Source: Acidobacteriota bacterium
GTDB lineage: Bacteria; Acidobacteriota; Terriglobia; Acidiferrales; UBA7541
Direction of reading: 5' to 3'
DNA: 32,506 nt
NCBI GenBank assembly: GCA_003223245.1
Contig: QHYI01000146.1
Location: 1 to 32,506 of the forward strand
The position numbers were made by a program, and so were the translations under genes. Positions 5,034 through 24,669 of this stretch are shown here, piece by piece (the first letter of the stretch is position 1; each line of letters opens with the position of its first letter). The notes beneath the pieces were generated by a model. The model worked only from the letters and a program-made list of their open reading frames with translations, had not been told where the DNA came from and made no database searches.

Positions 5034-5139
5034 AGGAGGAACCGTGGCCTCCAGCGGCATCGCTCGTGCTTTTTGACAAAAAGAAAAAGGTGCTTTGGTC
5101 TGCGCCATGAATGCAGAAGGAAAGGAAGAGGTAGGCCAT
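5033..5139 (+). other. Short spacer with a Shine-Dalgarno sequence and a possible gene remnant
   Basis: Directly after the amidohydrolase stop there is an AAGGAGG (5033-5039) and a GTG at 5044 whose frame closes after ten codons. A different frame (5048-5110) reads ASLVLFDKKKKVLWSAP before TGA, which has the look of a conserved strand-turn-strand segment ending in WSAP. This may be the leftover of a third gene once coupled to the amidohydrolase. I cannot name its family. Confidence 0.2.
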
Positions 5140-7594: not shown

Positions 7595-7600
7595 GAAATC

Positions 7601-7634
7601 AACTCATCAGTTAGATTGTACGAACTGTGCAGTT
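7601..7634 (-). promoter_or_regulatory. Candidate twin operator of the Phd/PIN module
   Basis: Two copies of AACT-N4-AGTT (AACTCATCAGTT at 7601-7612 and AACTGTGCAGTT at 7623-7634) sit 22 bases apart, two helical turns, starting six bases upstream of the antitoxin ATG. Each is an imperfect palindrome suited to an antitoxin dimer. Binding is inferred from position and symmetry. Confidence 0.55.
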
Positions 7635-7880
7635 AAATTGCAACGACTGTCCGTAGGGAGCTTCGGCGTGCGAACCGCTGCGCGCTACAAAGTCGATCCC
7701 TTCACGATTGCCGCTGCCATGGTCACGGCTGAACTGTCGGCGAAAAAGAAAGGCGGCAAGGCACGAGCTGGACATCTAAAATTCCCAGGTATACCCTTAC
7801 GGGACTGTCCCCCACGGATATCCCTTTCAGAAGATCATCACTGGCAGTGTGCGGATTCTTTGTGGAACTGAGGGGGCAAA
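7635..7880. other. Region before the DUF3892 gene with an unplaced lysine-rich frame
   Basis: A plus-strand frame running to 7871 contains a protein-like run around 7690-7770 (YKVDPFTIAAAMVTAEL followed by SAKKKGGKA). It resembles the charged tail of a DNA-associated protein, but neither a start nor a family can be assigned. It may be the end of a decayed gene. Confidence 0.25.
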
Positions 7881-8210
7881 ATGGCTCGATACCTACGCAT
7901 ACGGCACGTCGTCAAGACTGACCGACCGAGCGCCCATGAACGAATCCAGGCGATCTGTGGGATCAAGCCGGACAGGAGTCATTGGTCACTCACGCAGGAC
8001 GAGGCTATTTCACAGGTAGAGGATGGGACTTCCATGTTCTATGTAGAGCGTGCTGGCAGACGGTTTGACGTGATCGTTAGCATGGATCTTCACGCCCGCA
8101 AATACCTCAAAACCGTCGCGGATAGAGAACAGCCTGACGAGCTTCTCTATCTGCCGAATTGCCAGAACCTCGCGCACGAAATAAGGAGTCGATCTGCGGC
8201 GGCTGGATGA
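7881..8210 (+). CDS. DUF3892 family protein
   Basis: A 109-residue protein whose first 95 residues match the DUF3892 pattern: a short N-terminal strand (LRIRHVVKTDR), an Ile-rich middle (ERIQAICG), then EAISQVEDGTSMFYVE, VIVSMDLHARKYLKTVAD and LLYLPNC. The biochemical role of the family is unknown; members are small and often lie among mobile or accessory genes. A GAGGGGGC stretch seven to ten bases upstream serves as ribosome binding site. The last 14 residues (from NLAHEIRS) exceed the usual end of the domain and lead directly into a fragment of a cold-shock gene, so the C-terminus may have been altered by a deletion junction. Confidence 0.78.
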   Translation: MARYLRIRHVVKTDRPSAHERIQAICGIKPDRSHWSLTQDEAISQVEDGTSMFYVERAGRRFDVIVSMDLHARKYLKTVADREQPDELLYLPNCQNLAHEIRSRSAAAG

Positions 8211-8294
8211 CATCGCGTCGAGTTCGAAATCGTGCAGGGACCAAGCGGTCGTCCGGACGCGGCGAACGTCGTGGCCAGCGATGACCGTGACTAG
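8211..8294 (+). pseudogene. 3' remnant of a cold-shock (CspA-like) gene
   Basis: Immediately after the DUF3892 stop codon the same frame reads HRVEFEIVQGPSGRPDAANV and continues to a TAG at 8292-8294. This matches the C-terminal strand of CspA-family proteins (…G-x-V-x-F-E-x-x-Q-G-P-x-G-P-x-A-x-N-V). No start, RNP1 or RNP2 motif is present, so only the last third of the gene remains. The preceding bases in another frame (DLRRLDD) could be a frameshifted continuation. Confidence 0.6.
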
Positions 8295-8407
8295 GCCGCT
8301 TGCCCTCGGCCTGGTGGCGATCGTTCGCGTTGTGGGCTGCATTGGGATGATGGTAACGCGGATTCTCAGCGTGACTTCAAGCGGTTGGAGGCGCGGTTTC
8401 GCAATCC

Positions 8408-8590
8408 TCACTCCGCCTTGCGAACGAGATCGCAGCGCCTCATTCCCAGCGCGCACCCCAGCGTGCGAGCAATCTCAATGCCCATGCAGACTTGCCCAGT
8501 TCAAGCTGACGTGGTCCCGGTGAACGGTTCGCCCGCTCGGCAAATTCCTCTTGCGATAGTCCCAGTCCAGCGCGGTCATAACTCACCGTG
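8408..8590 (-). pseudogene. Frameshifted Xre-type helix-turn-helix regulator
   Basis: Read on the minus strand, this stretch spells a Cro/CI-type HTH in pieces. DRAGLGLSQEEFAERAN (helices 1-2) is in one frame, HRDHVS (recognition helix) in a second, LELGKS back in the first, and GIEIARTLGCALGMRR to CDLVRKAE with its stop at 8408-8410 in a third. The order and spacing match the HTH_3 fold of small Xre regulators, so at least three frame changes have occurred and no functional product is expected. Upstream (8591-8814) no further gene is recognisable. Confidence 0.65.
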
Positions 8591-8814
8591 CGACTCGGCT
8601 CCAAACGGATTCTCCTTCGCTACGCGAAGAAGATCACGAGCTTCGCAAATCACGACTTCCGCTTCGAATGGCAGTTTGCACGGCAACGCAGCGCGGAATT
8701 TTCCTTTTTGATCCAGGCCTGCGAACGACAAACGTATCGGCAGTGTCGTGTCCACATTTACGACACCATAATCGCTCGGTCTGCGGGCGTAGAGGCTCGG
8801 GCGAAACGATAGGC

Positions 8815-8874
8815 ATGGCGCTTGTCGTTTTCCTTCGAGATGTCAATGTTGGCGGACATAGGACTCACCGAGTC
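8815..8874 (+). pseudogene. N-terminal remnant of a DUF1697 gene
   Basis: From an ATG at 8815 the frame reads MALVVFLRDVNVGGHRTHR, closely matching the conserved start of DUF1697 proteins (…LLRGINVGG…). Homology stops after about 20 residues, just before the 3' end of the convergent acetyltransferase gene at 8879. The rest of this normally 150-180 residue protein is missing. Confidence 0.6.
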
Positions 8875-8878
8875 GCCG

Positions 8879-9550
8879 TTAACGGCGATCCTTCAACGCC
8901 GATCGAATTGTTCTTTGCATCAGCACGTTGCTTTCGCCGAGACGAGCGACGATCCGGAATCCCTCCCTCTCGAACATCGACACCGTCCCTCGGTACTTCT
9001 GGTAAGCTGCCCAGCGTCTGACCGGAAAAGCCTCGACCAAACCTCCTCCCTGATCTCGGATGGCGGCCAGTGCTGCCTTTAGAGCGGTACGCGCCACTCC
9101 GCGAAGGCGAAATTTCTTGTGAACCAGAAAGCAGGCTATCCTCCATCTCGCCTTCTCGTGTCCACTGACGAGCTTGCAGTATTTAGGATTGTTATCCATG
9201 CGAGGCAGTTCCTGGCTTAGCCCATATTGACACCACCCCACCGGCTCTCCGCGCGCGTAGACAAGTATGCCGTGTGAGCGCCCTTGCTTCACGAGCGCCT
9301 TCTTTTCCCGCCGGTTTCCTTCGATCTGGATCGCTCTCGAGCTCCCTTTCTTCTCCGGCGCAGATCCACGCCGGTGATTGTACATACACCAGCATGAATA
9401 CGCGCCTGGCGCCGGATGGGTCTCGAAAAGGCACTCGAAATCGCTCAACGTTCCTTCGGATAGCCGCTTGGTCGAGTACTCTGTATCTCGCGACGGTTTG
9501 AACTGCAAGCTCGGTTTTTTACGATTCCGTGTCATGGCATACCTAGTCAT
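8879..9550 (-). CDS. GNAT family N-acetyltransferase
   Basis: A 223-residue acetyltransferase-like protein. The N-terminal part has ECLFETHPAPGAYSCWCMYN, a Cys/Trp-rich motif known from a GNAT subgroup annotated only as 'GNAT family N-acetyltransferase'. The central strand VYARGEPVGWCQYG and the motif A region CFLVHKKFRLRGVARTALKA (about 139-158) provide the V/I-x-x-x-x-R-x-x-G-x-A acetyl-CoA pyrophosphate loop. The C-terminal YRGTVSMFEREGFRIVARLG is the closing strand pair. The substrate is unknown. Three ATGs lie close together (9550, 9535 and others); the third gives MTRNRKKPSL with AGG nearby and is about as likely as the first. Its 3' end sits against the DUF1697 remnant, suggesting that insertion or deletion created this junction. 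Confidence 0.8.
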   Translation of the reverse strand: MTRYAMTRNRKKPSLQFKPSRDTEYSTKRLSEGTLSDFECLFETHPAPGAYSCWCMYNHRRGSAPEKKGSSRAIQIEGNRREKKALVKQGRSHGILVYARGEPVGWCQYGLSQELPRMDNNPKYCKLVSGHEKARWRIACFLVHKKFRLRGVARTALKAALAAIRDQGGGLVEAFPVRRWAAYQKYRGTVSMFEREGFRIVARLGESNVLMQRTIRSALKDRR

Positions 9551-9592
9551 GGAATCGACATAGTGAGGCCAACCTTCGTTCTGTCCCGCTTG

Positions 9593-10564
9593 TTACTTGC
9601 GCTCCCTCAGAATCTCTTCAATTCGGCTTTTCGGAAATGGTAAATGGTCTTCATTTTGCTTCAGCCACTGGTAGTAATCCTGCTCGATCGGATCAGTCCA
9701 GCGGGCGTCAATTTGACCTGCGGTGTACTTGCCTTCTTGCAGGCGCAGGTGTCCAAAAAGATCGCGCAGATGCGTTTCTTCTGAGTATTTGACCACTTGC
9801 TCCGCCAATTGTGGTGGGATAAAGATGACTCCGCCGTTGCGTCCCAGCACGACGTCTCCGGGCACAACCATCACGTGACCTATGCGGGTCGGCGCATTGA
9901 TGCTCACCATCGTGGAGTTCAGAAGCCTGCCGGACTTCAGCGATCCATAGTGGTGCGAAGGATCGTATGCACGAACAAAGGCTACAAAGTCCGGAAGTTC
10001 GTCAAGGCCGTTGATGTCTCGGACCGCACCATCATAAACAATTCCATTTCCAGATTTCGCATAGATCGCATTTCCAACATTGTCGCCAACGGAAGGTCCG
10101 CCCTCTTTCAGTCCGAAGTGATCGCACGTATAAACATCGCGCTTTTGCAACATATCCACGGGCCAGGCGTTCATTCCTCCGACCCTGTGCATCTTCGCGC
10201 CTTCATCTTCCAGCACCTTTTGCACATCAGGCCGGCCCGGCATCCAGGTGGCCGTGAGCGCACGTCCAACCAGCACCTTTTCCGGATGTATGGACAGCCA
10301 ACCATCCTCGTACTGATGCATGAAGCCGTTTTGCTGGAGTACAGCCCAAGCCTCTTCCAGTCTCACTCGCTTCATGCGGTCCAGGATGTCATCAGGTACC
10401 TTGGGGCGGCCATCTGGAAATCGCTCACCATGCCAGTCTGGCGTGTACTTGATCACATCCTCAGAAGTAAAGAAACCCTGCTGTGGGTGTGCGGTTGCCA
10501 CAGTTACCGCGATAAGAGCCAGGCACAGAATCCCGCAGGGAATCCGGTTACGTCCTCTTTTCAT
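9593..10564 (-). CDS. Exported RraA-like protein (dimethylmenaquinone methyltransferase-like fold)
   Basis: A 323-residue protein of the RraA / HMG-CHA aldolase-like family with an N-terminal signal peptide (about 1-28, cleavage near AHPQ). The family core is clear: GPSVGDNVGNAIYA (about 156-169) and GIVYDGAVRDINGL (174-187) with R182 and D183 of the divalent-metal/substrate site, then MVVPGDVVLGRNGGVIFIP (232-250). Cytosolic relatives are either regulators of RNase E or class II pyruvate aldolases / oxaloacetate decarboxylases. The signal peptide makes an RNase role implausible and favours an enzymatic role on a keto- or hydroxy-acid in the periplasm. It lies 26 bases downstream of the enolase-superfamily gene in the same direction, consistent with successive dehydration and aldol or decarboxylation steps. 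Length exceeds the usual 160-230 because of N- and C-terminal extensions. Confidence 0.85.
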   Translation of the reverse strand: MKRGRNRIPCGILCLALIAVTVATAHPQQGFFTSEDVIKYTPDWHGERFPDGRPKVPDDILDRMKRVRLEEAWAVLQQNGFMHQYEDGWLSIHPEKVLVGRALTATWMPGRPDVQKVLEDEGAKMHRVGGMNAWPVDMLQKRDVYTCDHFGLKEGGPSVGDNVGNAIYAKSGNGIVYDGAVRDINGLDELPDFVAFVRAYDPSHHYGSLKSGRLLNSTMVSINAPTRIGHVMVVPGDVVLGRNGGVIFIPPQLAEQVVKYSEETHLRDLFGHLRLQEGKYTAGQIDARWTDPIEQDYYQWLKQNEDHLPFPKSRIEEILRERK

Positions 10565-10590
10565 CCTTGCATTCCCTCCACTTATTCTCG

Positions 10591-11856
10591 TCAGGCTTTG
10601 TTGGATTCAAACCAAGTCGTTCCCGGGACTTGTGCTTTTCGCGCCACCTCTTCGTTCATGTCAATACCAAGGCCCGACTTATCGGTCAAGGTGACGTAAC
10701 CCTTCTGGATGATTTCGCCTTCCTTCACCCAGCCCTTCCAAAGATCAGGGAAGTTGATCCAGTGCCACTCGCAAACCAGGAAGTTGGGAACCGAGGCACA
10801 AACATGGGCCGAGGACATCATACCAATCGGTGACACCACACAATGCGGCGCAACTGGCACGTAATATGTCTGGGCCAGATTGGCGATTTTCCGGCCTTCT
10901 GAGAGTCCGCCAGTCTTTTGAATGTCCGGTTGGATAATATCCACGGCATTTTTTTGCAGGAGTTCACGATATCCCCAACGCATGTACAAGTTCTCTCCGG
11001 TGGCGATCGGGGTTGCCGTCGAATGGCGGATGTCCGCCATGGCATCAATATTTTCTGGTGGTACGACTTCTTCCAGCCAGAGCAACCGGAAAGGTTCGAG
11101 TTCCTTTGCGACCCGCTTCGCCGTCCCTGCGTCGTACCGGCCGTGCATGTCGCAGGCAAGTTCCATTTCCTTGGGAATCGATTCCCGGACATGCTTGACC
11201 CAGCTCACCATGCGGTCCACCTCGGCGTTATTGGCGGTCCAGTTCACCCTGTCGAACCGATTCGGATCGGTAGCATCATCCAAGTCGATCTTCATGGCCG
11301 TGAAGCCCTGGTCCTTAATCCAGGAAAGCTTCCGGGCAGACTCCGGACTCAGTGGATCATCCATATCGGAGTCGCAATAGATTCGCACTCGGTCGCGAAA
11401 TTTCCCGCCCAAGAGTTGATAGACGGGCAGGCCCAGAGCCTTTCCGGCCAAATCCCACAGAGCGATTTCGAGGCCCGATAACGCGGTGATATATTGCCCG
11501 CCCTGCGCACCGGCGAAGATTCCTGAAACACGGATTCTCTCCCACAGGGCATCAACGTTCAGCGGATCCTGTCCAACCAAAAATCGCCGGAACTGGCTCA
11601 CCAGGGATGCCGTGCCGACGGCGGCATCGGTTGATTCGCCTTGCCCGTAGAGTCCCTGATCGGTGTAAATGCGTACATGCGTCTGCAGCCCATGCACGCG
11701 GACCTGTGCCGTGCGCACGTCTGTGATCTTCAGTTTAGGACGTTGATACGGAGTACTCACATCCTGCACTGCCGCGGCCAAAGTAGGAAGCGCAAAGGTC
11801 CCAGTGAATGGCAACGCCGCGTTCTTAAGCATCGTCCTGCGCGAAAGTAGAATCAT
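10591..11856 (-). CDS. Exported mandelate racemase/muconate lactonizing enzyme (enolase superfamily)
   Basis: A 421-residue enolase-superfamily enzyme. It begins with a Tat-like signal (SRRTMLKNAALPF), an alpha+beta capping domain (about 42-150, including the LSGLEIALWDLAGKALG helix) and the TIM barrel. Metal ligands are D236 (CDMHGRY), E262 (WLEEVV) and E288 (ATGENLY). K189 lies in the MKIDLD motif, H238 is a possible general acid, and D311/H338 (QPDIQ, APHC) form the His-Asp dyad. The pattern is that of acid-sugar dehydratases such as galactonate or gluconate dehydratases, which remove water after abstracting the alpha proton of a carboxylate. The true substrate is not deducible. The start has AAGGAGG about ten bases upstream. 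It is the first gene of a unit with the RraA-like protein. Confidence 0.9.
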   Translation of the reverse strand: MILLSRRTMLKNAALPFTGTFALPTLAAAVQDVSTPYQRPKLKITDVRTAQVRVHGLQTHVRIYTDQGLYGQGESTDAAVGTASLVSQFRRFLVGQDPLNVDALWERIRVSGIFAGAQGGQYITALSGLEIALWDLAGKALGLPVYQLLGGKFRDRVRIYCDSDMDDPLSPESARKLSWIKDQGFTAMKIDLDDATDPNRFDRVNWTANNAEVDRMVSWVKHVRESIPKEMELACDMHGRYDAGTAKRVAKELEPFRLLWLEEVVPPENIDAMADIRHSTATPIATGENLYMRWGYRELLQKNAVDIIQPDIQKTGGLSEGRKIANLAQTYYVPVAPHCVVSPIGMMSSAHVCASVPNFLVCEWHWINFPDLWKGWVKEGEIIQKGYVTLTDKSGLGIDMNEEVARKAQVPGTTWFESNKA

Positions 11857-12255
11857 TCAGCAGACCCTCCTTGTAGGCATGATTTATGAATTTGAAGCCG
11901 TCTCGGCCCGCACTTGCTTCAATGCGGTAGACTTTAGTTGCTTGGTCCGAATCCACCATCAGCCAGGCAAGGGCGCCCGAAACACGAACCTACGGCTACC
12001 CGAAAAGACAGCACCCCATCCGAACGGTTCGCTACAAACAGTGTCAAACTCGCGGTTGTGGTTCCTCCGAGTTGTCCACGCATATGCGATTTTGAAAGCA
12101 CCGCACCAAAGCACCTAGCTCCCGATTAGTCAGCAAGAACGAAGCCGCTTGTGCGGCGGACGCTGCGCAAACCAGGAAGCAAATTCGGGTTCTCATATCT
12201 GCACTCGTCGCGTCATTATCCCCGGCCAGCGCTCATTGACGTAGCCAAATCGCCA
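11857..12255. other. Intergenic region between the divergent enolase-family unit and the antitoxin relic
   Basis: This stretch holds the leader and presumably the promoter of the minus-strand enolase-family gene (AAGGAGG at about 11866-11872) and the promoter of the short plus-strand antitoxin relic. No reading frame in it resembles a known protein and no strong terminator hairpin was seen. Confidence 0.4.
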
Positions 12256-12267
12256 TACACTATAGCC
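12256..12267 (+). promoter_or_regulatory. Candidate -10 element for a leaderless transcript
   Basis: TACACT at 12256-12261 lies six bases before the ATG at 12268, and TTGACG is found at 12236-12241. A -10 this close to the start codon would place the transcription start at or next to the A of ATG, so the message would have no ribosome binding site; none is visible. The spacer of 14 bases is short, so the -35 assignment is weak. Confidence 0.3.
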
Positions 12268-12514
12268 ATGGGTAGCTATAAGAAGCTGTCAGTTGGCGTC
12301 AAAGAGCTGAAGGACGGCGCATCGGAAATCATTGCGCTCGTCCAGCGCACTGGCCAGGCAGTGTCGATCATAAAGAATCACCGGGAAGGGGCGAGGATCA
12401 TGCCCCGTACCGGCCGACGCTCACGAGCGTCTGATCGCTGCCGGTCTTGTCCAACGCTTTGAGATTTGCCGCAGTCGTCGGCAACGGCCTGCTGTCAAAC
12501 ACTTGGCCGGATGA
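12268..12514 (+). pseudogene. Frameshifted Phd/YefM-type antitoxin
   Basis: The frame starting at ATG 12268 reads MGSYKKLSVGVKELKDGAS and continues through EIIALVQRTGQAVSIIKNH, matching the DNA-binding half of 'prevent-host-death' antitoxins (VxVRELKxxLSExLxxV…). After about residue 47 the homologous continuation is found one base out of frame: DAHERLIAAGLVQRFEI and RSRRQRPAVKHLAG up to a TGA at 12512-12514. That resembles the basic C-terminal segment (…RLIAAGLA…) of the same family. A single indel near 12400-12415 explains both halves. No PIN toxin follows, so the module has lost its partner. Confidence 0.55.
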
Positions 12515-12615
12515 TTGCATTCTGATAGTGGTGGCTATATGTTATCGGTCGACGGGGATCTCAAAAAAGGTAATTTGGGGTTTACTGGAGTCGTACGCTT
12601 AACGTTTCGATTGCG

Positions 12616-13335
12616 ATGCTGATGCAGCACCTGCTCTGCTTGTTTCTCCTGGTCGTTGCTCCTATTTGGGATTTGTACGACACGCGGAAGTTGAAGCGTA
12701 ATCCCAGTTCCGAACAGAAAATTCACTACTATAAGACGATTTGCACCTGGCTCTGGATTGCCAGTGCGCTCGCAGTTGTTGCCATTGGCTTCCGCCAGCT
12801 GTTCACCATCAGTCCTTCGCCCGGTGAAATCTCCTGGCTATTACGGCACCCTTGGGTTCGCTACCTGGTAGAAGCGCTGATCGCGATCGTAGTTATTATT
12901 TCTGTGGTGCTTCCGGTCGGCACAGTGATCTGGAAGAAGCTGACGAAGCGGCCACGCAAGTATTCCCCTGCCGTCCTGAAATCGTTCAGCTACTTCTTAC
13001 CCGCAACCTGGACCGAGCGCCGCTGGTGGGTGTTCGTCTGCATCACAGCGGGAGTTTGCGAAGAAGCTCTCTTCCGCGGCTTCATGCTGCACTACTTACA
13101 CGTTTTCCCTTGGACGCTGAATCTTACGCTGGCGCTGCTGATTTCCTCGGTGATCTTCGGATTTAACCATCTCTATCAGGGTGCTGGCGGAGTCGTGGGC
13201 AGTGCGATCGTCGGCTTTCTTTTTGGCCTATTGTTTCTGCTGACTGGAAATCTTCTGCTTCCGATTATCTTCCATGGCGTGATGGATCTGCGCATGCTGG
13301 CCATATTGCGGGCTCCGGCTGATACACCGTCCTAA
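12616..13335 (+). CDS. CPBP family intramembrane glutamic endopeptidase
   Basis: A 239-residue integral membrane protease of the CPBP (CAAX protease and bacteriocin-processing, ABI/Rce1) family. About six or seven hydrophobic segments are visible. The three catalytic motifs are present and correctly ordered: EEALFRG (E149, E150, R154), FGFNH (F181, H185) and HGVMD (H220, D224). These form the intramembrane glutamate/histidine site that cleaves peptides within the membrane. Roles in bacteria include bacteriocin self-immunity and peptide maturation; nothing nearby indicates a substrate. The start at ATG 12616 (MLMQHLL) has no clear ribosome binding site; the second ATG two codons later is equally possible. 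It converges on the truncated hydrolase gene. Confidence 0.9.
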   Translation: MLMQHLLCLFLLVVAPIWDLYDTRKLKRNPSSEQKIHYYKTICTWLWIASALAVVAIGFRQLFTISPSPGEISWLLRHPWVRYLVEALIAIVVIISVVLPVGTVIWKKLTKRPRKYSPAVLKSFSYFLPATWTERRWWVFVCITAGVCEEALFRGFMLHYLHVFPWTLNLTLALLISSVIFGFNHLYQGAGGVVGSAIVGFLFGLLFLLTGNLLLPIIFHGVMDLRMLAILRAPADTPS

Positions 13336-13358
13336 GAATCAACGATTCAATCACCCGC

Positions 13359-14102
13359 TTATTTGACCTGCTCTGCTGGACGGCCCGCCGGGAAAGTGTG
13401 GATGCTCACCCAATCGGCGATGATTTTGAGAGCTGTGGGGGACCTGGTCTCTTCGATGTCGTTGTATTCGCTCGGGGCACCAGTCTTAGAGTCCTGCAGT
13501 AGATGGTTCATACCCCGCAATTCGATGACCGTTGCGTTTGAGTTGTTTCTCAGTGCGTCGCGAGCAGCTGCGAGATTTTCCTTCGCAGGCACCTGTACGT
13601 CTAGTGAGCCATTGAGCACTAGAACCGGCGCTGTGAGTCGGGCCAACGCAGGCGCGGGATCATAGGCGAGGAAGTAGCGCTCCCAAGGTGTCGTATCATC
13701 TTTCGCTAAAGTCTCCGCCTCGTTGGCATCCACGAGCTTGTCGGCAACGCCCTGAGCAACCTTAGACTTAGCGCGGTCGAGCGCGGCAGACTCCGACGGC
13801 GCCGAAACAATGGCCCTGTAGAGTTCTTGATCGAACACTTTGCGCCTAGCGATATAGTCGTCCGGCGCGCCGTAAGCCTTCGCTGTCATTGCCGATTGCA
13901 GGACGAACAATCGGTCGCCGCGAATGCATGGACCGGCGATCATAACGACAAACGCAACGCTTTTGTCCGCGGCGGCAACAGCCGGCGCTATGATGCCACC
14001 TTCCGAATGACCGAGCACACCAATCCGGCTCGCATCAATTTGAGGTTGCGTCTTAAGCCAAGATACGGCCGCTTGAGACTGGCTGGGGGTGCGAGCCAGC
14101 AA
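13359..14102 (-). pseudogene. 5'-truncated alpha/beta hydrolase
   Basis: A 247-residue C-terminal part of an exported-type alpha/beta hydrolase. It keeps the nucleophile elbow GHSEGG (about 31-36), the acid in LNGSLDVQVP and the histidine in LRGMNHLLQ, so the catalytic triad is complete. Relatives have roughly 150-200 additional N-terminal residues containing the signal peptide and the first strands of the hydrolase core. Here homology begins abruptly at AAVSWLKTQPQIDASRIG. The only start is a TTG at 14102 without a ribosome binding site. The 3' end of sodC lies 39 bases upstream, in the place where the missing half should be. A deletion that joined sodC to the middle of this gene is the simplest explanation. 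Confidence 0.7.
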
Positions 14103-14141
14103 GTTCTACGACTGGCGACAGCGCTATGGGCGCGTCAAGGC

Positions 14142-14687
14142 TTATTGCGCGCCGGTTTGAATCACACCACATGCGATACGCGCGCCCGAGTTGCCTGCGG
14201 GATCAGTTTTGTAATCGTCCGCTTTCTCGTGAATCACCAACGCCGTGCCACCCTCATGGAAGAGAGAGTTTAACCCGTTGCCAAGCGTGACGCTTGGGTC
14301 TGAAAGCGACGCTTTGCCCGTTCCATCGGCGCCTACCTCGATATTCTGCAAGTCTCCACCGTGCGGTCCCTCGGGATTGTCTTTTCCGTGTTTCTTGGAC
14401 GTTGGATTGAAGTGCCCCCCTGCGCTTGCGAAGGCCGGCCCCTCACACTTTCCGACTGCGTGAATGTGAATACCATGAGCGCCCGGAGCCAGCTGAGACA
14501 CTTGCACATCAATACGAACGCCGCCATCGGAGGGATGGATGGTTGCGGAGCCGATCTTTTGGCCCTGCGCGTTGGCAATGTCCGCGTGGGCGGACTGCGG
14601 TGATTGCTGTGGGAGGGCGGATGCGGTGCTCGCCCCCGCTACGGTACATAGGCAGATGACGGCAGCCATGACCAAAAGTCGACGCAT
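14142..14687 (-). CDS. sodC: Periplasmic Cu/Zn superoxide dismutase
   Basis: A 181-residue Cu/Zn superoxide dismutase that converts superoxide to oxygen and hydrogen peroxide in the periplasm. A signal peptide covers about 1-24. The ligands are all present: Cu-binding H74 and H76 (GIHIHAVGKC), bridging H92 (GGHFNP), Zn-binding H100, H109 and D112, and Cu-binding H153 (LVIHEKADD). The disulfide pair is C81/C173 (KCEG, IACGVI) and the active-site Arg is R170 (GARIACG). Length is typical of bacterial SodC. The start is supported by an AAGGAGG at about 14698-14704, and a promoter-like TTGACA/TAGGCT pair lies further upstream. It precedes the truncated hydrolase, with no sign that the two form a natural operon. 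Confidence 0.96.
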   Translation of the reverse strand: MRRLLVMAAVICLCTVAGASTASALPQQSPQSAHADIANAQGQKIGSATIHPSDGGVRIDVQVSQLAPGAHGIHIHAVGKCEGPAFASAGGHFNPTSKKHGKDNPEGPHGGDLQNIEVGADGTGKASLSDPSVTLGNGLNSLFHEGGTALVIHEKADDYKTDPAGNSGARIACGVIQTGAQ

Positions 14688-14734
14688 GGAAGTCTACCTC
14701 CTTCGAAATTTCGGAGGCCACCCGATTCGCTCGC

Positions 14735-14764
14735 AGCCTATTCTTGTGTTCACATCAGTGTCAA
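14735..14764 (-). promoter_or_regulatory. Candidate sodC promoter
   Basis: On the minus strand TTGACA (14764-14759) is followed after 18 bases by TAGGCT (14740-14735). The -35 is a perfect match to the sigma-70 type consensus and the -10 fits TAnnnT. Transcription would begin near 14728 and give a leader of about 40 bases that includes the AAGGAGG before the ATG. Confidence 0.4.
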
Positions 14765-14885
14765 CCCTAATCTCTGTGTCCAGCCGCCGAAGACTCGTTC
14801 TCAAATGCTTACGAGCTCCAGGGGTGGGTTGGTGGCACGTATTTCGACCGCGTAACGACGACCACTGACAGGAAATATCGCAGAA

Positions 14886-15791
14886 TTAATTTCCCGATGG
14901 CGCTTGCTGCCCGATCGGTTTGAGCTGTCCTGGATGCGCACTCACCCACTGCTTGAATGTTGCTAACTCAGGCGTTTTGATCGATACCTGCAAGGTTCGC
15001 AGGAAGTGCACCAAATCCCAGGCTTCCTCGGGCTTGATGGTGTCAGCGAAGGACGGCATCGGTGTTCCGTCCAGGCCGGTCATAAAGATCCGGTAAAGAT
15101 CGCGGTTCGATACGCCGCATTTAAAGCGTTCGCCAGTGGTGAAGTCGTAGGGGCGAATCGGATTGCCCTTGCTGTCGGTCAGGGTCGCGGCCGAGGGACC
15201 GTCTCCCCGCCCTTCAGGCCCATGGCACTTCCAGCACTCCATCTTCTGAAACAGTTCCCGGCCATGCAGAATGCTCTCGATTTTGGCCGGAGGCTCCGGT
15301 GGAATGGCGATCGGCGTTCCCGCCTTATCGGTCTGCCATCTTAGAGAGAATGTCTTGATGAACGCCACCAGGTCTGCGCGATCAAGGCCCGAGAGAGGTC
15401 GCCACTCCGGCATGTTGGTAGTAACAAACCCGCGGGTCAAAGCATCAAAAAGATCCTCATCGGTCGGAAGCGTCCCGCTCGGTGTCGAGCGGCATTTGAA
15501 CACCGCCACCGTGAAATCCCGGGGTTTTGCAAACCCGAGAGTCGGATCGAACCATATTGCGTTTTCGCCGTTTCCGTCGCCACTGGCGCCGTGGCATCCC
15601 ACACAAAATCGACGGTAGAGTGCTTTCCCATCTGACGAGTGGCCCGTAAGGCCTCCAACGCGGGCTTCCATTGGTCCGGTCACCGCGTGAAAATGAATGT
15701 CGATCTGCGCAAAGCAAGGCGTGGTACCTGCGGCCAAGGCGAGCCCCAACGAACCGAAGAAGAATGCCACCACTGATGTGATTGATTTCAT
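14886..15791 (-). CDS. Periplasmic diheme cytochrome c
   Basis: A 301-residue c-type cytochrome with a signal peptide (about 1-28, ending CFAQ) and two tandem class-I domains. The first heme site is CVGCH (63-67) with a likely Met ligand in NMPEW (M127). The second is CWKCH (186-190) with GTPMPSF as its Met loop. The start ATG at 15791 is preferred over upstream codons because it begins the signal peptide. It lies 16 bases downstream of the cytochrome-porin gene, so the two are one transcription unit. A two-domain soluble cytochrome next to an outer-membrane cytochrome is the expected periplasmic electron acceptor or donor. The family recalls the diheme subunits of various oxidoreductases, but no catalytic partner lies nearby. 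Confidence 0.88.
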   Translation of the reverse strand: MKSITSVVAFFFGSLGLALAAGTTPCFAQIDIHFHAVTGPMEARVGGLTGHSSDGKALYRRFCVGCHGASGDGNGENAIWFDPTLGFAKPRDFTVAVFKCRSTPSGTLPTDEDLFDALTRGFVTTNMPEWRPLSGLDRADLVAFIKTFSLRWQTDKAGTPIAIPPEPPAKIESILHGRELFQKMECWKCHGPEGRGDGPSAATLTDSKGNPIRPYDFTTGERFKCGVSNRDLYRIFMTGLDGTPMPSFADTIKPEEAWDLVHFLRTLQVSIKTPELATFKQWVSAHPGQLKPIGQQAPSGN

Positions 15792-15807
15792 CGAAGGCCT
15801 CTGTCTC

Positions 15808-17268
15808 TCAAAAGTCGAAGTCGAATCCGAAAAGCAAGCTTTGACTCCACACCCCCGGGCACGTTGCTGTACACGGGATGCTGCCCACGCCATTGCCGCT
15901 CAGCGGAATAGACCCGGCGGTCTTCACTAACGAAAACTCGTTGTGCCAAGCAAGCCCCGCACGACTGAACATGATGGGATACCATCGGTAGCCAGCCGTA
16001 TAGGCATCAATGTCGCCTAAGTTGCTGGGGTTTGACGTGAGCGCTTGCCTTGACATGCGGATAATTTCGTAGCGCCCGGTCAGAACCAGTTGCGGGCTGT
16101 AGTAGTAGTGCGTTTCAATGAAGCCGCCGTTCCACTTTGGCGCTTGAGCGCCGGCCGGAAGCGGCACATTCGCGGGAGTTGCTGTGCCAAGAAATACGTT
16201 GTCATACCCATGCAGAAAAAATGGCAGGAACTCCCATTTCCCCTGAAGGATATAAAGATCTCCAGCGAAACCCACACGATAAAATGACTTATTCCCCAAG
16301 CCGGTACCTGGTATAGGCTCGCCGCCACCGAAGGTCTGCGAGAACGTTGGTCTCCGGCCAGCGTAGGCGTATCCCCCCAGCCTCTGGAGCCCCAGTCGCC
16401 CAACCTGGAACGCTTGGCTGAAAGTGACGTACCCGTCGTAGGTGCGGTTCGAGGGCAGGCCAGGGTTGCCACTGTTACTACTCACGAGCGACGCCGAATA
16501 GCGCGTGTAGCTGTTTGCGGAATGGCCCATCAATTCAACGCCAATCTGATTGTCTCCGAGTCCGAAATCGTTCGAAGCTCCCACTGGCACGAAGTGATAG
16601 GTCTGGTAGAAACCCCCGTTTGCGGATAGGAATAGGAATCGTTTTTCGGAAATCAGGTTGTCGAGCTCAAACTTCCCGAACTTTACATTCACCCATCGGC
16701 TGTTGAGCAAATTGTCAAAGCGCACGAATGCGTTTTCGAAGCCGAAGGTCCCATCCGAGTCCAAGGAAGGAAGCAAGGAAAAGGAAATATTCTTGTAGAG
16801 TGTCCCCGCCGTCCACACGTCCATTCCCGAGAGGTCAAAACCGTGTTGCTCCACGACGGAGCCGTTTGGCGGAGCGCCGTCGACAGGCTGATGATTCGTG
16901 CGTTCGCGGTGCCAATTCGGCGTCATCCGGAACGTTATCGGCCAATAGCTCGGATTCTGCCAGATGGGGGAGTCGCGATCGTTCATGAGCTGGTATCCGT
17001 TGTCGCGGAAGACTTGGCCAAAGTTGTTCAATTCGGGCCACGCTGTGTGGCACGCGGAACATGGCAGCCCGTACTTTCGCGCAAACGCAGGGATCGCACG
17101 GACATTGCCGCCCGGGAGAGGCTCGGCAGAAGCGGAACGACTATCCGCAAGGATGACGGCAAAGAGAAGAAGCCCTAGGAAAAGCGACAATGCCAGCCAC
17201 AAAATGCTCTTCTTCGCCAAATGTCTTGCACGTTCGCCCATATCGCCTCCTGAGTATTGGCTACCCAT
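15808..17268 (-). CDS. Outer-membrane monoheme cytochrome-porin with Cyc2-like architecture
   Basis: A 486-residue protein with an N-terminal export signal (hydrophobic core about 20-42), one c-type heme site CSACH (70-74) and a C-terminal beta-barrel of about 380 residues rich in alternating aromatic strands, ending in FGFDFDF, a barrel-type C-terminus. The heme environment IPAFARKYGLPCSACHTAWP and the following ELNNFGQVFRDNGYQL match the conserved N-terminus of fused cytochrome-porins such as Cyc2, the outer-membrane Fe(II) oxidase of iron oxidisers. Size (about 450-490) also agrees. Fe(II) oxidation is not proven: related cytochrome-porins occur in non-iron-oxidisers. The diheme cytochrome follows in the same unit. 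Tandem start codons, each with its own AGGAGG, lie at 17268 and 17241; a GTG at 17271 is also in frame. Confidence 0.8.
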   Translation of the reverse strand: MGSQYSGGDMGERARHLAKKSILWLALSLFLGLLLFAVILADSRSASAEPLPGGNVRAIPAFARKYGLPCSACHTAWPELNNFGQVFRDNGYQLMNDRDSPIWQNPSYWPITFRMTPNWHRERTNHQPVDGAPPNGSVVEQHGFDLSGMDVWTAGTLYKNISFSLLPSLDSDGTFGFENAFVRFDNLLNSRWVNVKFGKFELDNLISEKRFLFLSANGGFYQTYHFVPVGASNDFGLGDNQIGVELMGHSANSYTRYSASLVSSNSGNPGLPSNRTYDGYVTFSQAFQVGRLGLQRLGGYAYAGRRPTFSQTFGGGEPIPGTGLGNKSFYRVGFAGDLYILQGKWEFLPFFLHGYDNVFLGTATPANVPLPAGAQAPKWNGGFIETHYYYSPQLVLTGRYEIIRMSRQALTSNPSNLGDIDAYTAGYRWYPIMFSRAGLAWHNEFSLVKTAGSIPLSGNGVGSIPCTATCPGVWSQSLLFGFDFDF

Positions 17269-17280
17269 CACACTCCTCCT
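17246..17280 (-). promoter_or_regulatory. Tandem ribosome binding sites before the cytochrome-porin
   Basis: AGGAGG at 17280-17275 lies six bases before the ATG at 17268, and a second AGGAGG at 17251-17246 lies four bases before an in-frame ATG at 17241. Both could work; the shorter protein lacks nine residues (start MGERARHLAKK) and would still carry the full export signal. The better-spaced first site is preferred. Confidence 0.55.
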
Positions 17281-17459
17281 GGAAGATCGGGATTAACGGT
17301 ACATGGAACGGGGAGACACCCTCCAACCGACGAGCCCCGTGGTGCGTAGACAACCCAGGGGAAATTTTTGATGAAAGAAGCTGAATAGGCCCTGGAGAAT
17401 CCGCCGAGTCTCTCCCTTCGAAGAGACGACCTGTTCGGTTTCTCCGTGGACCGAACGCG

Positions 17460-17489
17460 AATCTACCGCGAGAAAAAAACCCATGTCAA
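17460..17489 (-). promoter_or_regulatory. Candidate promoter of the cytochrome unit
   Basis: Reading the minus strand, TTGACA (17489-17484) and TAGATT (17465-17460) are 18 bases apart, close to the sigma-70 consensus. Initiation near 17453 would give a leader of about 185 bases before the cytochrome-porin start. Confidence 0.5.
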
Positions 17490-17548
17490 GCGTTTTGTCA
17501 CTTTTGGAAATTTTTTTGAGCTTGAAATTCCGCTACTGGCGCGATTAC

Positions 17549-17581
17549 GTAAATTCGGCGTAAATTCGGCGTAAAGTCGGC
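17549..17581. repeat. Three tandem 11-base repeats
   Basis: GTAAATTCGGC is present twice head-to-tail (17549-17559 and 17560-17570) and a third copy with one change, GTAAAGTCGGC, follows (17571-17581). Eleven bases is close to one helical turn, so a DNA-binding protein would find its sites on the same face. The array lies in the divergent spacer, 60 bases upstream of the candidate cytochrome promoter and 300 bases upstream of the SH3-protein gene. Confidence 0.7.
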
Positions 17582-17881
17582 CGTTTTCTTTCGCAGATTT
17601 GCCGGGAAAGCCGAGGCTTTTCCGCAAAATGTTTGCAACCGTCGATCATGTTTTACAAAACCAGCTTTAGCCTTACAGTGGTCTCAAGCTGTGAACTGGA
17701 TGGTATGCACGATTTTCTCTGCCCAGACGGTAAGCATATCGAATTGCCTCACGCCTCCACCCCTCCCTAGCGCCGGTCGCTGGTCAGCAATTCGTTGCCC
17801 TACTTTTGAGGGTTGACATTCCTCTGCCCCGCGCGGTAGGAAAAGACCTGGACGCAATCGTCCCCCGGAGCAGAAGCAAAT

Positions 17882-18793
17882 ATGCGTGACACAGCACAAG
17901 GCGCAAAGCACGACTACGTTTGGCGCAAATCACCACCGATATCGGTGGGCTTCGGATTGGGCACCGCGATGCTCTGCGCGTTTTTGCTGGTACCGCGAGC
18001 ATACGCCTCGAAGGACCGTGACACACCCAGTCCAGGTTTCGTGACTGAATTCTCTGCTCCCATCGAAGACGTCATCGAGGCCTTACAGGAAGTGCTGCAG
18101 GATGGAACGATCCATGGAACACTCATGTTTGAAAAAGAGCCGGCGCTTACTGGGGCGATTGCTGTAGAGTCGACTCCACTGTTTGGAGCTTGGAAGGGTG
18201 CAGGCAAGGTCTTCTATAAGATTCGCAACGATGCCCTAGCTCCCCGGCATTTCCAGGGGAGTGCCGACCAAGGAACGATCGCCGTTCGTTATGTGGTCGC
18301 GGGTGTTAGCGCAGAACGGACGCGCTTACGCATTGACGCCATTTTTGTTGAAACGGCCCAACGCGCAACGCACCCCTCCGATGGCACAGTCGAATCCAGC
18401 GAATGCAAGGCGATTCAGGATCATCTTCAGGCGATGCAACTTGCCGAACGGGAAGCGGCAGACGCTCAGCGGCGTCGCGAGAGTGCGGACCTTGCCCGAC
18501 AAACCTTCATCCGGCAGCGCGAGGACGAAGCAGCTCTTCTAGCCTCGGCAAAGTCTTCCGCACAAGATCTCGAGCAGCGCATCGATTCTTTACGGCGCGA
18601 GATACAGAGACGGATTAAAGCACCCGGCGCCAGTTTGAAAGCGGCACCATTTCGCTCAGCAGCCACCCTGACCAATCTCACCCCCCAGACCGAGGTTGTT
18701 GTCCTGATCGTGACTCCCCACTGGTACGGCGTAGAAACTCCCAGCGGTCAGCACGGATGGCTTCCTCTAGACCAATTGGAACCCCTGCCGTGA
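17882..18793 (+). CDS. Exported protein with coiled coil and C-terminal SH3-like domain
   Basis: A 303-residue protein not assigned to a named family. After a cytoplasmic N-terminus a hydrophobic export segment (about 21-42, GFGLGTAMLCAFLLV) ends near AYASK. An N-terminal domain of about 110 residues follows (FSAPIEDVIEALQEVLQDG). A charged coiled coil (about 178-243, rich in Ala, Arg, Glu and Gln) leads to a C-terminal bacterial SH3-like domain (about 250-303) with TEVVVLIVTPHWYGVETP and HGWLPLDQLE. Bacterial SH3 domains usually bind peptidoglycan or protein ligands at the cell envelope. The next gene starts with a GTG that overlaps this stop by four bases (GTGA, 18790-18793) and encodes a protein with related parts, so they probably act together. 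An internal ATG at MLCAFLL could be an alternative start. Confidence 0.78.
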   Translation: MRDTAQGAKHDYVWRKSPPISVGFGLGTAMLCAFLLVPRAYASKDRDTPSPGFVTEFSAPIEDVIEALQEVLQDGTIHGTLMFEKEPALTGAIAVESTPLFGAWKGAGKVFYKIRNDALAPRHFQGSADQGTIAVRYVVAGVSAERTRLRIDAIFVETAQRATHPSDGTVESSECKAIQDHLQAMQLAEREAADAQRRRESADLARQTFIRQREDEAALLASAKSSAQDLEQRIDSLRREIQRRIKAPGASLKAAPFRSAATLTNLTPQTEVVVLIVTPHWYGVETPSGQHGWLPLDQLEPLP

Positions 18794-20100
18794 GAAAATA
18801 CAGATACGCCAAATGCAGCTTGCCATTTCTTACGTTTTGTGTGTTTTTCACTTGGGGCATTTCATCTCCGCTGCCGCTGATTGCCCAAGCCGTCCCTTAT
18901 GCTCGGACCTATGCCAAGTCGAATGAAGCAGTGGACAATGCCTTAAAAGAAATGCAAGCCTACACTGGCCAAAGACTACCGGTTCTTGACGGTTTCGTGG
19001 CCAATGCAGATCATCCCCTCGATCACTACCAGCGCGCCTTCTACCAATTCTCGATCGACCTTCTGCCTGCAGGGTCCGCCAGCACCGTTGTCCGCGTCAC
19101 CGCAAAAATCACGGCGTGGTATACCGACCGCGAGCCGTGGAAGTCGGGCTACCAAGTGCTGCCCTCGAACGGCCGGCTAGAGTTGGACCTTCTTGACAGA
19201 CTCAGCGACAAGCTCGGCGGGAAGCCCGCTGCCTCTCGATCCGCTTCGGAGGTCGAAGCTCCAAAAGCGAAGTTGGACCTCTCTGGCTTGGCGAGCAGTC
19301 CTCTCAAATCAAGCACCATTCCCGTCCCGGCTCCGACTCTCTCCGCAAGGACGGCGCCGGGCGGATCACACGATGAAGAAGTACCTGCCCTTCGAGCCCA
19401 GCGGGAGGAAGAAGAGAAGCGCATGCGACAGCTCAACGAAGAGCTCCAGAATCTTGAGGAGATCCGGCGCAGCCAAGCGCATCCTGTGAATCTTGTCGTG
19501 GTTAACAAGGCCAGCACGCCCGTACTCGCCCGACCCGCCGCGGACTCTCGCGTTCTCTTCCTGGCCGCGGTCGATGACGAATTCGAGCTTCTTGAGGCCA
19601 AGGGTGAATGGATTCACGTGGAGATTTCCGGTCCATTGCGTGGATATATTCGCCGAAGCAATCTGGATTTGCCCGAGTATCTCGCTTCGCGGTCAAAATC
19701 GCCAGACGGGACGACTGCCGATGAGAAGCCGGAGGTCTTCCGCGTGGAGCGCGAGGAAACCAGGATCTTCCCCATCAAATGGGAGCCGTTGACTGGGAAG
19801 TCCGTAAAGATATATACGGTCCGGCCGATTTCACAAGACTTGAAGGAAACAGATGCTGCTGCGAAGCTCAATTTCGCGTTTTCCCTGTTCCAGAAATTCT
19901 CAGAAGATTCAAGTGGCGGGGCAGCGCCGGGAGTCGAGGGGGTTGTCGTTACTTTTGATTTCGCCGATGGCGGCATCATAGGGACCACGTTCGCAGACCT
20001 AAAGCAGATGATGGCTGGCTCGCTCTCCCGAGACAATTTCTGGAAACTCTGTTATTTGGATCCTCCTGACGCCTTTCAGCCATCACCTCAGCCGCATTGA
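18790..20100 (+). CDS. Exported protein with coiled coil and SH3-like domain, partner of the preceding gene
   Basis: A 436-residue exported protein of no named family. The GTG at 18790 overlaps the previous stop (GTGA) and is preferred to an upstream in-frame codon at 18757 that would give an unlikely 37-base overlap. It starts VRKYRYAKCSLPF, with a hydrophobic signal to about residue 35 (PLIAQA). Next come an alpha/beta domain (about 40-135), a low-complexity linker, and a coiled coil (about 195-230, AQREEEEKRMRQLNEELQ). An SH3-like domain (about 235-300: VNLVVVNKASTPVLARP, EWIHVEISGPLRGYIRRS) precedes a C-terminal domain (about 320-436). Shared N-domain, coiled coil and SH3 order with the upstream protein suggests ancient duplication or heteromeric assembly. 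A role in the cell envelope is inferred from export and SH3 content only. Confidence 0.78.
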   Translation: MRKYRYAKCSLPFLTFCVFFTWGISSPLPLIAQAVPYARTYAKSNEAVDNALKEMQAYTGQRLPVLDGFVANADHPLDHYQRAFYQFSIDLLPAGSASTVVRVTAKITAWYTDREPWKSGYQVLPSNGRLELDLLDRLSDKLGGKPAASRSASEVEAPKAKLDLSGLASSPLKSSTIPVPAPTLSARTAPGGSHDEEVPALRAQREEEEKRMRQLNEELQNLEEIRRSQAHPVNLVVVNKASTPVLARPAADSRVLFLAAVDDEFELLEAKGEWIHVEISGPLRGYIRRSNLDLPEYLASRSKSPDGTTADEKPEVFRVEREETRIFPIKWEPLTGKSVKIYTVRPISQDLKETDAAAKLNFAFSLFQKFSEDSSGGAAPGVEGVVVTFDFADGGIIGTTFADLKQMMAGSLSRDNFWKLCYLDPPDAFQPSPQPH

Positions 20101-22955: not shown

Positions 22956-23004
22956 TTGTAAATTTCCACCGCATCAGGTCTTCAAAGAAACAGTGGAGGG
23001 CGTT

Positions 23005-24669
23005 ATGAGCCAGACTTCTCTAAAAATCTGCCGATCGCTTGCTTTTCTGTCTCCATTTCTGGTGGCCGTGGTGGCATGGTCCCAAAACCCCAATTCACAA
23101 GTCGGGCGGGAAGTCGCAATACCAAGCCATCTGCAAGACGGCGAGGAATTCAGCACGTCTGTGAGCCAGTTAATCCGCTACGGCGCGCAGCTTTTCAATG
23201 CCAGGTTCACAGTCCAAGAAGGAGCAGGCCGTCCCTTGTCGAAAGGAACTGGGGCTCCTCTCTCGGATCTCACTTCTCCGTTGGTGTTCCCACGGAACTT
23301 CGACCGAGTCTCCTCCCCAGATGCAAACTCCTGCTCTGGATGCCACAACGCTCCGCTCCCGGGAGGAGGCGGTGACCGTGTGACGGAAGTGTTCGTCTTG
23401 GCGCAGCGCTTTGATCGACTCACGTTCGATCACAGTGACGGCATCACGACCCGCGGCGCTGAGGACGAGTCCGGAAAGATGGTCACCATGGAGAATGCCA
23501 CAAACGATAGGAAGACGATTGCTATGAACGGATCGGGCTTCATCGAAATGTTGGCTCGGCAGATGACCGCGGATCTGCAGAGAACGCGCGACGGGATCCT
23601 TCCGGGAAATAGCATGGCATTAATGTCGAAGGGAATTTCTTTTGGGGTTTTGTCACGCAAGGCGGACGGCACGTGGGATACGTCGCGAGTGGAAGGTTTG
23701 GCGGCACCGAGCCTCGGCAGCAAAGGCAGCCTGCCAAGCCTGATCATCCGACCGTTGCATCAAACGGGCAATGTGGTCTCCATAAGGCAGTTCAGCAACA
23801 ATGCGTTCAACCATCATCACGGGATGCAGTCGGAAGAACGTTTTTTTCCGCTCGGTCCCGACCCTGACGGCGACGGCTTTGCCAACGAGCTTACAACGGC
23901 CGACTTGACCGCGGTTTCTCTATTCCAGGCTACCCTGCCCGTTCCGGGCCGCGTGATTCCCAATGATCCGGCAGTGGAGCGCGCTAATCTCATGGGCGAG
24001 GCGCTGTTCAATAAGATCGGCTGCGCAACGTGCCATGCTACTCTGTCACTCACTTCCAATAACAATCCGGGTCTCCCGGAACAGCCCGGATGGATCTACT
24101 TTGAGCCTAATCCGTATAATCCGGCCACTGGTCCCAATGCTCCGAACTTGCAACTCGGGCCTGCGAGCTACCCGGTCAGCGCTCCTGCCCTTACCGTGGA
24201 CTTGACGAGCAATTCTTTGCCGCTTCCGCGGTTAAGTCCACAGGCCGGCGTTGTCGTCGTGCCCGCTTACACCGACCTCAAGCTGCATGACATCAGCGCC
24301 ACCAGCAACCCAGCGACAGATCCGGAGTGCGAACCGCTCGACCAGAACCAACCGGCCGGATCGTCCGGCTTCTTTGCGGGGAACTGTAAATTCATCACTC
24401 GCAAGTTATGGGGCTTCTACAACCAGGGCGGAGCCTTCATGCACCACGGGAAGTTTACCACCGCGCGCGAAGCGGTCGAGGCTCACTACGGCGAGGCTCT
24501 CGCCTCGGCGCAAGCATTCGCCAAGCTGACCGCCAAAGAGAAAAACGAGGTGATCGAATTCCTGAAATCGCTGCAGGTTCTGCCGCAGGGCTCGGAATCG
24601 CTAGTTATCGACGAACACGGAAAACCTAAGAATTGGCCCCCATCGACAGATTCTTCGCTGGAAGAATAG
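23005..24669 (+). CDS. Exported di-heme oxidoreductase (cytochrome c peroxidase-like)
   Basis: A 554-residue periplasmic protein of the di-heme oxidoreductase/putative peroxidase group (DHOR, PF06537-like). The ATG at 23005 follows GGAGGG and starts a signal peptide (about 1-26, ending AWSQ); an upstream GTG at 22993 is less likely. Heme sites are CSGCH (110-114) and CATCH (340-344). Typical later motifs include VPAYTDLKLHDIS, FITRKLWGFYNQGGAFMHHG and FTTAREAVEAHYGEA, the family's distal region. Relatives of this group transfer electrons to peroxides or have unknown oxidoreductase roles; the substrate here is unknown. It is preceded by the Tat-exported protein of unknown function and a terminator-like hairpin, and is followed by unassigned sequence. 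Length is larger than classic MauG/CcpA (about 330) but normal for DHOR. Confidence 0.87.
   Translation: MSQTSLKICRSLAFLSPFLVAVVAWSQNPNSQVGREVAIPSHLQDGEEFSTSVSQLIRYGAQLFNARFTVQEGAGRPLSKGTGAPLSDLTSPLVFPRNFDRVSSPDANSCSGCHNAPLPGGGGDRVTEVFVLAQRFDRLTFDHSDGITTRGAEDESGKMVTMENATNDRKTIAMNGSGFIEMLARQMTADLQRTRDGILPGNSMALMSKGISFGVLSRKADGTWDTSRVEGLAAPSLGSKGSLPSLIIRPLHQTGNVVSIRQFSNNAFNHHHGMQSEERFFPLGPDPDGDGFANELTTADLTAVSLFQATLPVPGRVIPNDPAVERANLMGEALFNKIGCATCHATLSLTSNNNPGLPEQPGWIYFEPNPYNPATGPNAPNLQLGPASYPVSAPALTVDLTSNSLPLPRLSPQAGVVVVPAYTDLKLHDISATSNPATDPECEPLDQNQPAGSSGFFAGNCKFITRKLWGFYNQGGAFMHHGKFTTAREAVEAHYGEALASAQAFAKLTAKEKNEVIEFLKSLQVLPQGSESLVIDEHGKPKNWPPSTDSSLEE

Follow-up and report, generated by a model that had tools for sequence, protein, structure and literature searches.

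A Cyc2-like porin-cytochrome and its diheme partner in an acidobacterial genome: a candidate outer-membrane conduit, and the rus-like gene cluster that it heads in most relatives

Is a pair of adjoining cytochrome genes in an acidobacterial genome a complete route for electrons across the outer membrane, or one end of a larger system? The question was raised by contig QHYI01000146.1 of assembly GCA_003223245.1 (Acidobacteriota; Terriglobia; Acidiferrales; UBA7541), analysed here over positions 1 to 32,506 (the window). Side by side on its minus strand lie a gene for a Cyc2-like fused cytochrome-porin and one for a diheme cytochrome c, in which a first-pass annotation had seen a compact two-gene conduit for electrons from extracellular Fe(II). 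Our results showed that the pair stands as a candidate outer-membrane conduit, but that in most relatives it is the head of a cupredoxin-oxidase cluster, which is shortened here. Uptake of electrons from Fe(II) is probably the role of this clade, the window keeping the outer-membrane and periplasmic end of the chain; iron as the substrate is, however, something that we infer.

The larger gene (15808-17241, minus strand) encodes a protein of 477 amino acids. Open reading frame prediction had started it at GTG 17271 (487 amino acids); since AGGAGG, likely a ribosome-binding site (17251-17246), precedes ATG 17241, the start was set at that codon. The N-terminus is hydrophobic and signal-like, as judged by eye. 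As first annotated, the protein carries one heme c site in a Cyc2-style context (CSACH, residues 61-65, 17047-17061, within AIPAFARKYGLPCSACHTAWPEL) and ends in FDFDF, and FARKYGLPCSACH was likewise found in the 477-residue version. According to the portion of PMC8406198 that was consulted, Cyc2 proteins are defined by AXPXFAR[Q/K][T/Y] ahead of CXXCH, a motif described as unique to them, by PXL behind it, by a length of at least 365 amino acids and by a porin domain. The window protein reads AIPAFARKY-GLP-CSACH-TAW-PEL, with the motif before and PXL after the heme site; its 477 residues include a single CXXCH, the number that the definition requires, and a general-porin fold is predicted (see below). 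F14-Y18 and C22-H26 (mature numbering), the latter being the heme site, showed no variation in 47 of 47 aligned rows. This invariance, together with the adjacency of the two genes in 48 of 50 relatives, indicates that the observation is not due to chance. Motif, length, heme count and predicted fold thus bear out the family assignment of the first-pass annotation, and there is very little doubt that the larger protein belongs to the Cyc2 family. Searches of Pfam and NCBIfam gave no match up to E 1, nor did a profile search of the PDB; by sequence, the PDB returned a single row (E 0.26), regarded as chance.

A profile comparison with six Cyc2-like proteins from proteobacterial plasmids (one of them from A. 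ferrooxidans) gave a probability of 98.3% and E 2e-14, over 128 columns on the N-terminal side only. These plasmid homologues, and not characterised Cyc2 proteins, formed the reference set both here and in the tree below, and two of the six (L115 and L117) display FAAQT where the others have FARQT. The AlphaFold2 model of the mature protein, built from the 47-row alignment, had a predicted local distance difference test score (pLDDT) of 78.5 and a predicted template modelling score of 0.80, with a barrel running from about residue 60 (mature) to the end. VIA-align ranked PorB (Z 25.4, 302 residues, 2.9 A) and Omp32 (24.3) as the best solved matches to the barrel, followed by OprO (23.2) and OprP (23.1), both of which are named as structural homologues of Cyc2 PV-1 in the consulted part of PMC8406198. 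The porin-fold match (PorB, Omp32, OprO) spanned approximately residues 60-438. Foldseek alone placed the porin BpsOmp38 on top, AlgE being among its matches too. DSSP divided the model into 18 strand pieces, with one strand apparently split, so that the count of 16 strands rests on the fold match. Of the 16-strand barrel with an N-terminal heme plug that had been expected, the general-porin barrel was recovered, and such a protein would be located in the outer membrane; the plug region (residues 1-60) is of low confidence in the model.

The second gene of the pair starts 16 bases downstream (15792-15807), at ATG 15791, and ends at 14886 on the same strand, in agreement with the first description. 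It encodes a diheme class-I cytochrome c of 301 amino acids, likely periplasmic, with two PF00034 stretches and heme sites CVGCH (residues 63-67, 15591-15605) and CWKCH (residues 186-190, 15222-15236). Judging from their conservation, Met127 (NMPEW) and Met245 (PMPSF) are the likely axial ligands of the first and second heme, respectively; among 48 aligned homologues, 97% or more retained the heme sites and methionines. The nearest solved relative was chain B of PDB entry 6h5l, with which both class-I heme domains aligned (residues 53-267, E 3e-54). This chain may be Kuenenia kustc0457, which partners a hydroxylamine-oxidoreductase-like protein; the entry did not turn up in a text search. A c4-type diheme cytochrome was considered and rejected because 6h5l_B was the best PDB match and the sole c4 row (8uf3) covered one stretch at E 1.3.

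To find relatives, a collection of genome contigs was scanned with six peptides taken from that protein of the window, which yielded 51 related loci that are hence close kin. Forty-six of them were aligned with the window protein (alignment A1; L020, L030, L043, L056 and L058 left out) and displayed 52-87% identity to it. Forty-eight loci carried labels of acidobacterial groups, which bore out the acidobacterial host named in the first-pass annotation. The other three (L016, L023 and L026) hold the same genes in metagenome-assembled genomes labelled Gemmatimonadetes or Verrucomicrobia, either through transfer or because the bins are mislabelled. A tree of 48 rows was composed of the window, 17 of the 51 loci, 24 other acidobacterial rows and the six plasmid proteins; a second copy from the source genome was omitted because of its stop codon. 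The window and its closest relative, locus L009, fell within an acidobacterial clade of 23 rows (support 100/100), apart from the plasmid proteins. As to these, each of the six plasmid genes (L060, L061, L062, L115, L116 and L117) is accompanied, at a distance of up to about 3 kb, by a gene for a c-type cytochrome, and the copy of A. ferrooxidans YQ-N3 adjoins a transposase gene and scores equally to the Acidiphilium cryptum plasmid match. Within the genus of the window, 16 of 25 genomes, source genome included, had a Cyc2-like match at 1e-30 or better; none was found at that level in 16 other genomes of the same order or class. Of 396 Acidobacteriota genomes sampled more widely, 87 had a match at 1e-10, mostly to the heme domain only among the matches listed, while G073, G084 and G210, from another family of the class, displayed strong and full-length matches.

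The neighbourhood of the pair in these relatives was counted from tblastn gene maps of loci with enough sequence. A diheme cytochrome gene lay at most 300 bases from Cyc2 in 48 of 50 loci (the exceptions being L027, where it is 2.6 kb away, and L030), a cupredoxin-like gene was present in 43 of 44 (again excepting L030), and CoxB and CoxA followed downstream in 32 of 38 (exceptions L010, L018, L020, L021, L026 and L037). The usual order, Cyc2, diheme cytochrome, cupredoxin, CoxB, CoxA, CoxC and Cox4, was maintained in all 36 loci having three or more cluster genes. In L009, Pfam recognised COX2, COX1, two COX3 and COX4_pro, and in L035 a UbiA-family enzyme. Fifteen other genomes of the genus with a Cyc2 gene (four of whose contigs, judging by their length, coincide with loci of the 51-locus set) all had the diheme gene; the run extended through CoxA, with the two SH3-domain genes described below, in 12 of them, whereas two had the cupredoxin alone after the diheme gene and one had it upstream. 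In the other family of the class, L118 and L119 displayed the full run, and L120 had Cyc2, diheme cytochrome, both SH3-domain genes and cupredoxin, with no cox gene in the region taken.

Residue conservation was also examined in the downstream proteins, for the cupredoxin in an alignment of 23 sequences (A2). CoxB conserves C233, C237, H241 and M244 (L009 numbering), the ligand set of a CuA center. The cupredoxin conserves H132, H135, C169, H172 and M175 (L009 numbering), a spacing that we take to be that of amicyanin ligands. Its 23-row profile matched a blue copper protein, amicyanins weakly, and also transthyretin-like domains. The corresponding model (pLDDT 81.2) placed a cupredoxin domain (approximately residues 99-182) within a transthyretin-like domain (Z up to 11.2). 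Matches to purple cupredoxin 5fc9 (Z 8.3) and to plastocyanins (7.9-8.2) are near the level of common matches, and the copper-ligand pattern is the stronger evidence.

The first-pass annotation had treated the pair as a self-contained module, which did not hold at its other side either: two divergent genes for SH3-domain proteins, d (17882-18793, plus strand) and c (18757-20100, plus strand), travel with Cyc2, both being beside it in 36 of 46 loci. Two further alignments, A3 (37 proteins) and A4 (33 proteins), covered d and c. Structure and function searches with c and d gave only SH3 domains above noise.

From this arrangement a chain can be proposed. The single N-terminal heme of the Cyc2-like protein would accept electrons singly from a soluble donor, most probably Fe(II), either at the porin or within it, and would pass each of them to the periplasmic diheme cytochrome. 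In most of the relatives examined, the electron could then move through the cupredoxin to the CuA heme-copper oxidase encoded directly downstream, so that the whole would amount to an Fe(II):O2 chain with its parts ordered as in the Acidithiobacillus rus operon. Because genes for a CuA oxidase are linked to the pair, inward flow to oxygen is the favoured direction. In the source genome, where the pair has lost its adjacency to cupredoxin and cox genes, electrons from the diheme cytochrome presumably reach oxidases whose genes lie on other contigs (C119 and C4).

Several observations weigh against the proposal that the pair takes up electrons from Fe(II). The window copy itself has no adjacent cupredoxin or cox genes. 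RuBisCO was not found in the source genome, which consequently gives no sign of Calvin-cycle autotrophy. The match to the plasmid profile did not extend beyond the heme domain and the initial strands, and in the model the heme domain (residues 1-60) had a mean pLDDT of at most 55 in each ten-residue block; the model contains no heme and shows no plug. Among 11 further regions drawn from other genomes, no diheme gene was found beside six distant Cyc2-like genes (L123-L128; in L128 the sequence stops right after the Cyc2-like gene), and one was present in the distant L121 and L122. Finally, Leptospirillum Cyc572 derives from a cluster with homologues in Acidobacteria and Nitrospira, as stated in the part of PMC10654088 at hand. 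The window clade may belong there. Should it fall in Cyc2 cluster 3, that cluster carries the FeGenie label 'probable iron oxidation and possible iron reduction'; it occurs in iron reducers such as Geobacter (PMC7005843, section consulted).

Among the alternatives, the one that survives best is a Cyc2-type conduit serving another donor, such as Mn(II), other reduced metals, humic substances or another cell, with electrons likewise going to oxygen. It would have an identical anatomy and an identical linked oxidase, and additional functions of Cyc2 are considered possible in the consulted part of PMC8406198; yet the same text reports that the three Cyc2 proteins tested biochemically, one per published cluster, oxidise Fe(II), and we consider such a donor unlikely.

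A second alternative concerns the source genome, and it is compatible with Fe(II) uptake in the clade: the window copy could be a decaying remnant, its role lost or confined to detoxification (of iron or redox type) alongside the Cu/Zn superoxide dismutase gene (14142-14687, minus strand) that lies directly downstream of the diheme gene, in the position of the cupredoxin in relatives. With blastn, the window could be aligned to the 17.4-kb L009 sequence over 14836-20098 only (85% identity), a stretch containing c, d, Cyc2 and the diheme gene. Synteny stops at 14836, about 50 bases past the diheme gene, where L009 goes on with its cupredoxin and cox genes. Elsewhere in the same genome, contig C78 (L082, 3138 bases) holds a rearranged relic of the cluster, with an open cupredoxin gene (88% identity to its L009 counterpart), a coxB fragment, gene d, the start of c and, on the opposite strand, diheme fragments. 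A run on contig C75 (L067; G000:C75:75000-92000, 4658-8739, plus strand) includes a second Cyc2 copy, which is interrupted by an in-frame TGA; a cupredoxin gene precedes this copy, and behind it lies a diheme protein extended by an AMIN domain. Against decay, the two genes of the window are intact, with 85% and 91% identity to their L009 counterparts, and the pair persists in six other relatives in which the 7.5 kb downstream yielded no cox genes. A remnant seems improbable, somewhat more so than a different donor.

The best reading is that the window copy is derived, having retained the outer-membrane and periplasmic end of the chain while the oxidase half is gone. The source genome has CoxA genes on C119, C4 and C93, and relocation of the cluster's own cox genes within the assembly was rejected: the nearest CoxA, in two broken pieces on C93, was 63% and 60% identical to L009 CoxA, as against 69.7-86.8% for CoxA of 29 relatives. 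Since the assembly consists of 237 contigs and is 95.8% complete, the cox genes could lie on a missing contig; the junction at 14836 may also reflect a chimeric assembly. The last alternative, outward flow, in which the pair would help to discharge electrons onto extracellular Fe(III) or other acceptors, has in its favour the iron-reduction side of the cluster 3 label and the lack of an oxidase adjoining the window copy, and is very improbable given CoxB and CoxA, with conserved CuA ligands, behind the pair in 32 of 38 relatives, a sink that fits inward flow better.

How does the acidobacterial system compare with known ones? With A. ferrooxidans Cyc2, Mariprofundus Cyc2 PV-1 and Leptospirillum Cyt572, the window protein shares the N-terminal monoheme signature, the general-porin fold and a length above 365 amino acids; it differs in sitting in an acidobacterial clade, in a tree from which the characterised proteins are absent. 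The Acidithiobacillus rus operon, cyc2-cyc1-cup-coxBACD-rus-ctaTBA, has the gene order seen from Cyc2 to Cox4 in most acidobacterial relatives. Yet the acidobacterial diheme cytochrome is nearest to 6h5l_B and not to c4, the cupredoxin is amicyanin-like inside a transthyretin-like fold, divergent SH3 genes are present, and in the window the run is reduced to Cyc2 and diheme cytochrome. In A. ferrooxidans, a diheme cytochrome c4 reduces the cupredoxin AcoP, which copurifies with the oxidase (PMC5982212, in the part used). No rusticyanin was identified among the mapped cluster genes, the genome not having been searched for rus by name, and up to E 10 the cupredoxin profile returned purple cupredoxin and amicyanins with no row named rusticyanin or AcoP, the presence of AcoP in the database behind that search not having been checked. 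The Leptospirillum pair Cyt572/Cyt579 likewise joins a Cyc2-type outer-membrane cytochrome to a soluble partner, but the partner in the window is diheme and scored 45 with the Cyt579 model, against a cut-off of 280 bits. MtrAB, MtoAB and PioAB, in which a separate decaheme wire is held in a 26-strand barrel (PMC10654088, section at hand), also carry electrons through the outer membrane by way of a barrel; the window protein combines a single heme and a general porin in one chain.

The cluster thus has rus-like parts in rus-like order, two of which seem to be of other families, either through deep divergence or through independent assembly. That Acidobacteriota assembled an Fe(II):O2 operon of their own, independently of rus, with a different diheme cytochrome, an amicyanin-like/transthyretin-like cupredoxin and two SH3 envelope proteins, the oxidase half being shed in single genomes, is a tentative proposal to which we give slightly less than even chances. 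In searches of open-licence PMC papers on Acidobacteria with Cyc2 or porin-cytochromes, and on Cyc2 itself, no description of the cluster appeared in the titles or abstract openings listed, and in the parts consulted of two surveys acidobacterial Cyc2 homologues were counted as hits only (PMC11312239, PMC9769843). The Cyc2 family itself is already known, and what merits further study is the conserved rus-like cluster behind the pair. Acidobacteriota are abundant in soils, and a conserved cluster joining Cyc2, cupredoxin and terminal oxidase replaces 'may oxidise iron' with a defined pathway that can be tested, besides providing a second lineage for comparing the rus operon layout. It also calls for caution, as a lone cyc2-cytochrome pair can be a shortened copy of a larger system.

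The promoter that had been proposed ahead of both genes, TTGACA-18-TAGATT (17489-17460, minus strand), is present and exactly preserved in L009. Its count is at chance level (two sites of this type against 1.8 in shuffled sequences) and it is seldom found in other relatives, a looser pattern occurring upstream of the Cyc2-like gene in 3 of 49 loci where 1.4 were expected; the promoter was rejected as evidence for an operon, save for its conservation in L009. At the ends of the block shared with L009, a search for the repeats of a mobile cassette gave no direct repeat and two weak inverted pairs, regarded as chance. When an empty site was sought in relatives, both flanks matched one contig of G397 in reversed order, from which mobility was not deduced. 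Neither Rfam matches at gathering scores nor tRNAs were found in the window. Elsewhere in the source genome, a run (L068; G000:C143:124000-143500, 6118-14811, minus strand) led by a more distant Cyc2-like gene (IPAFSRKYQTACTTCH) includes a plastocyanin-like protein, an FAD/4Fe-4S oxidoreductase, a Rieske protein, a cytochrome b and an eight-heme cytochrome. The window itself also encodes a DHOR di-haem oxidoreductase of a putative peroxidase family (22993-24669, plus strand).

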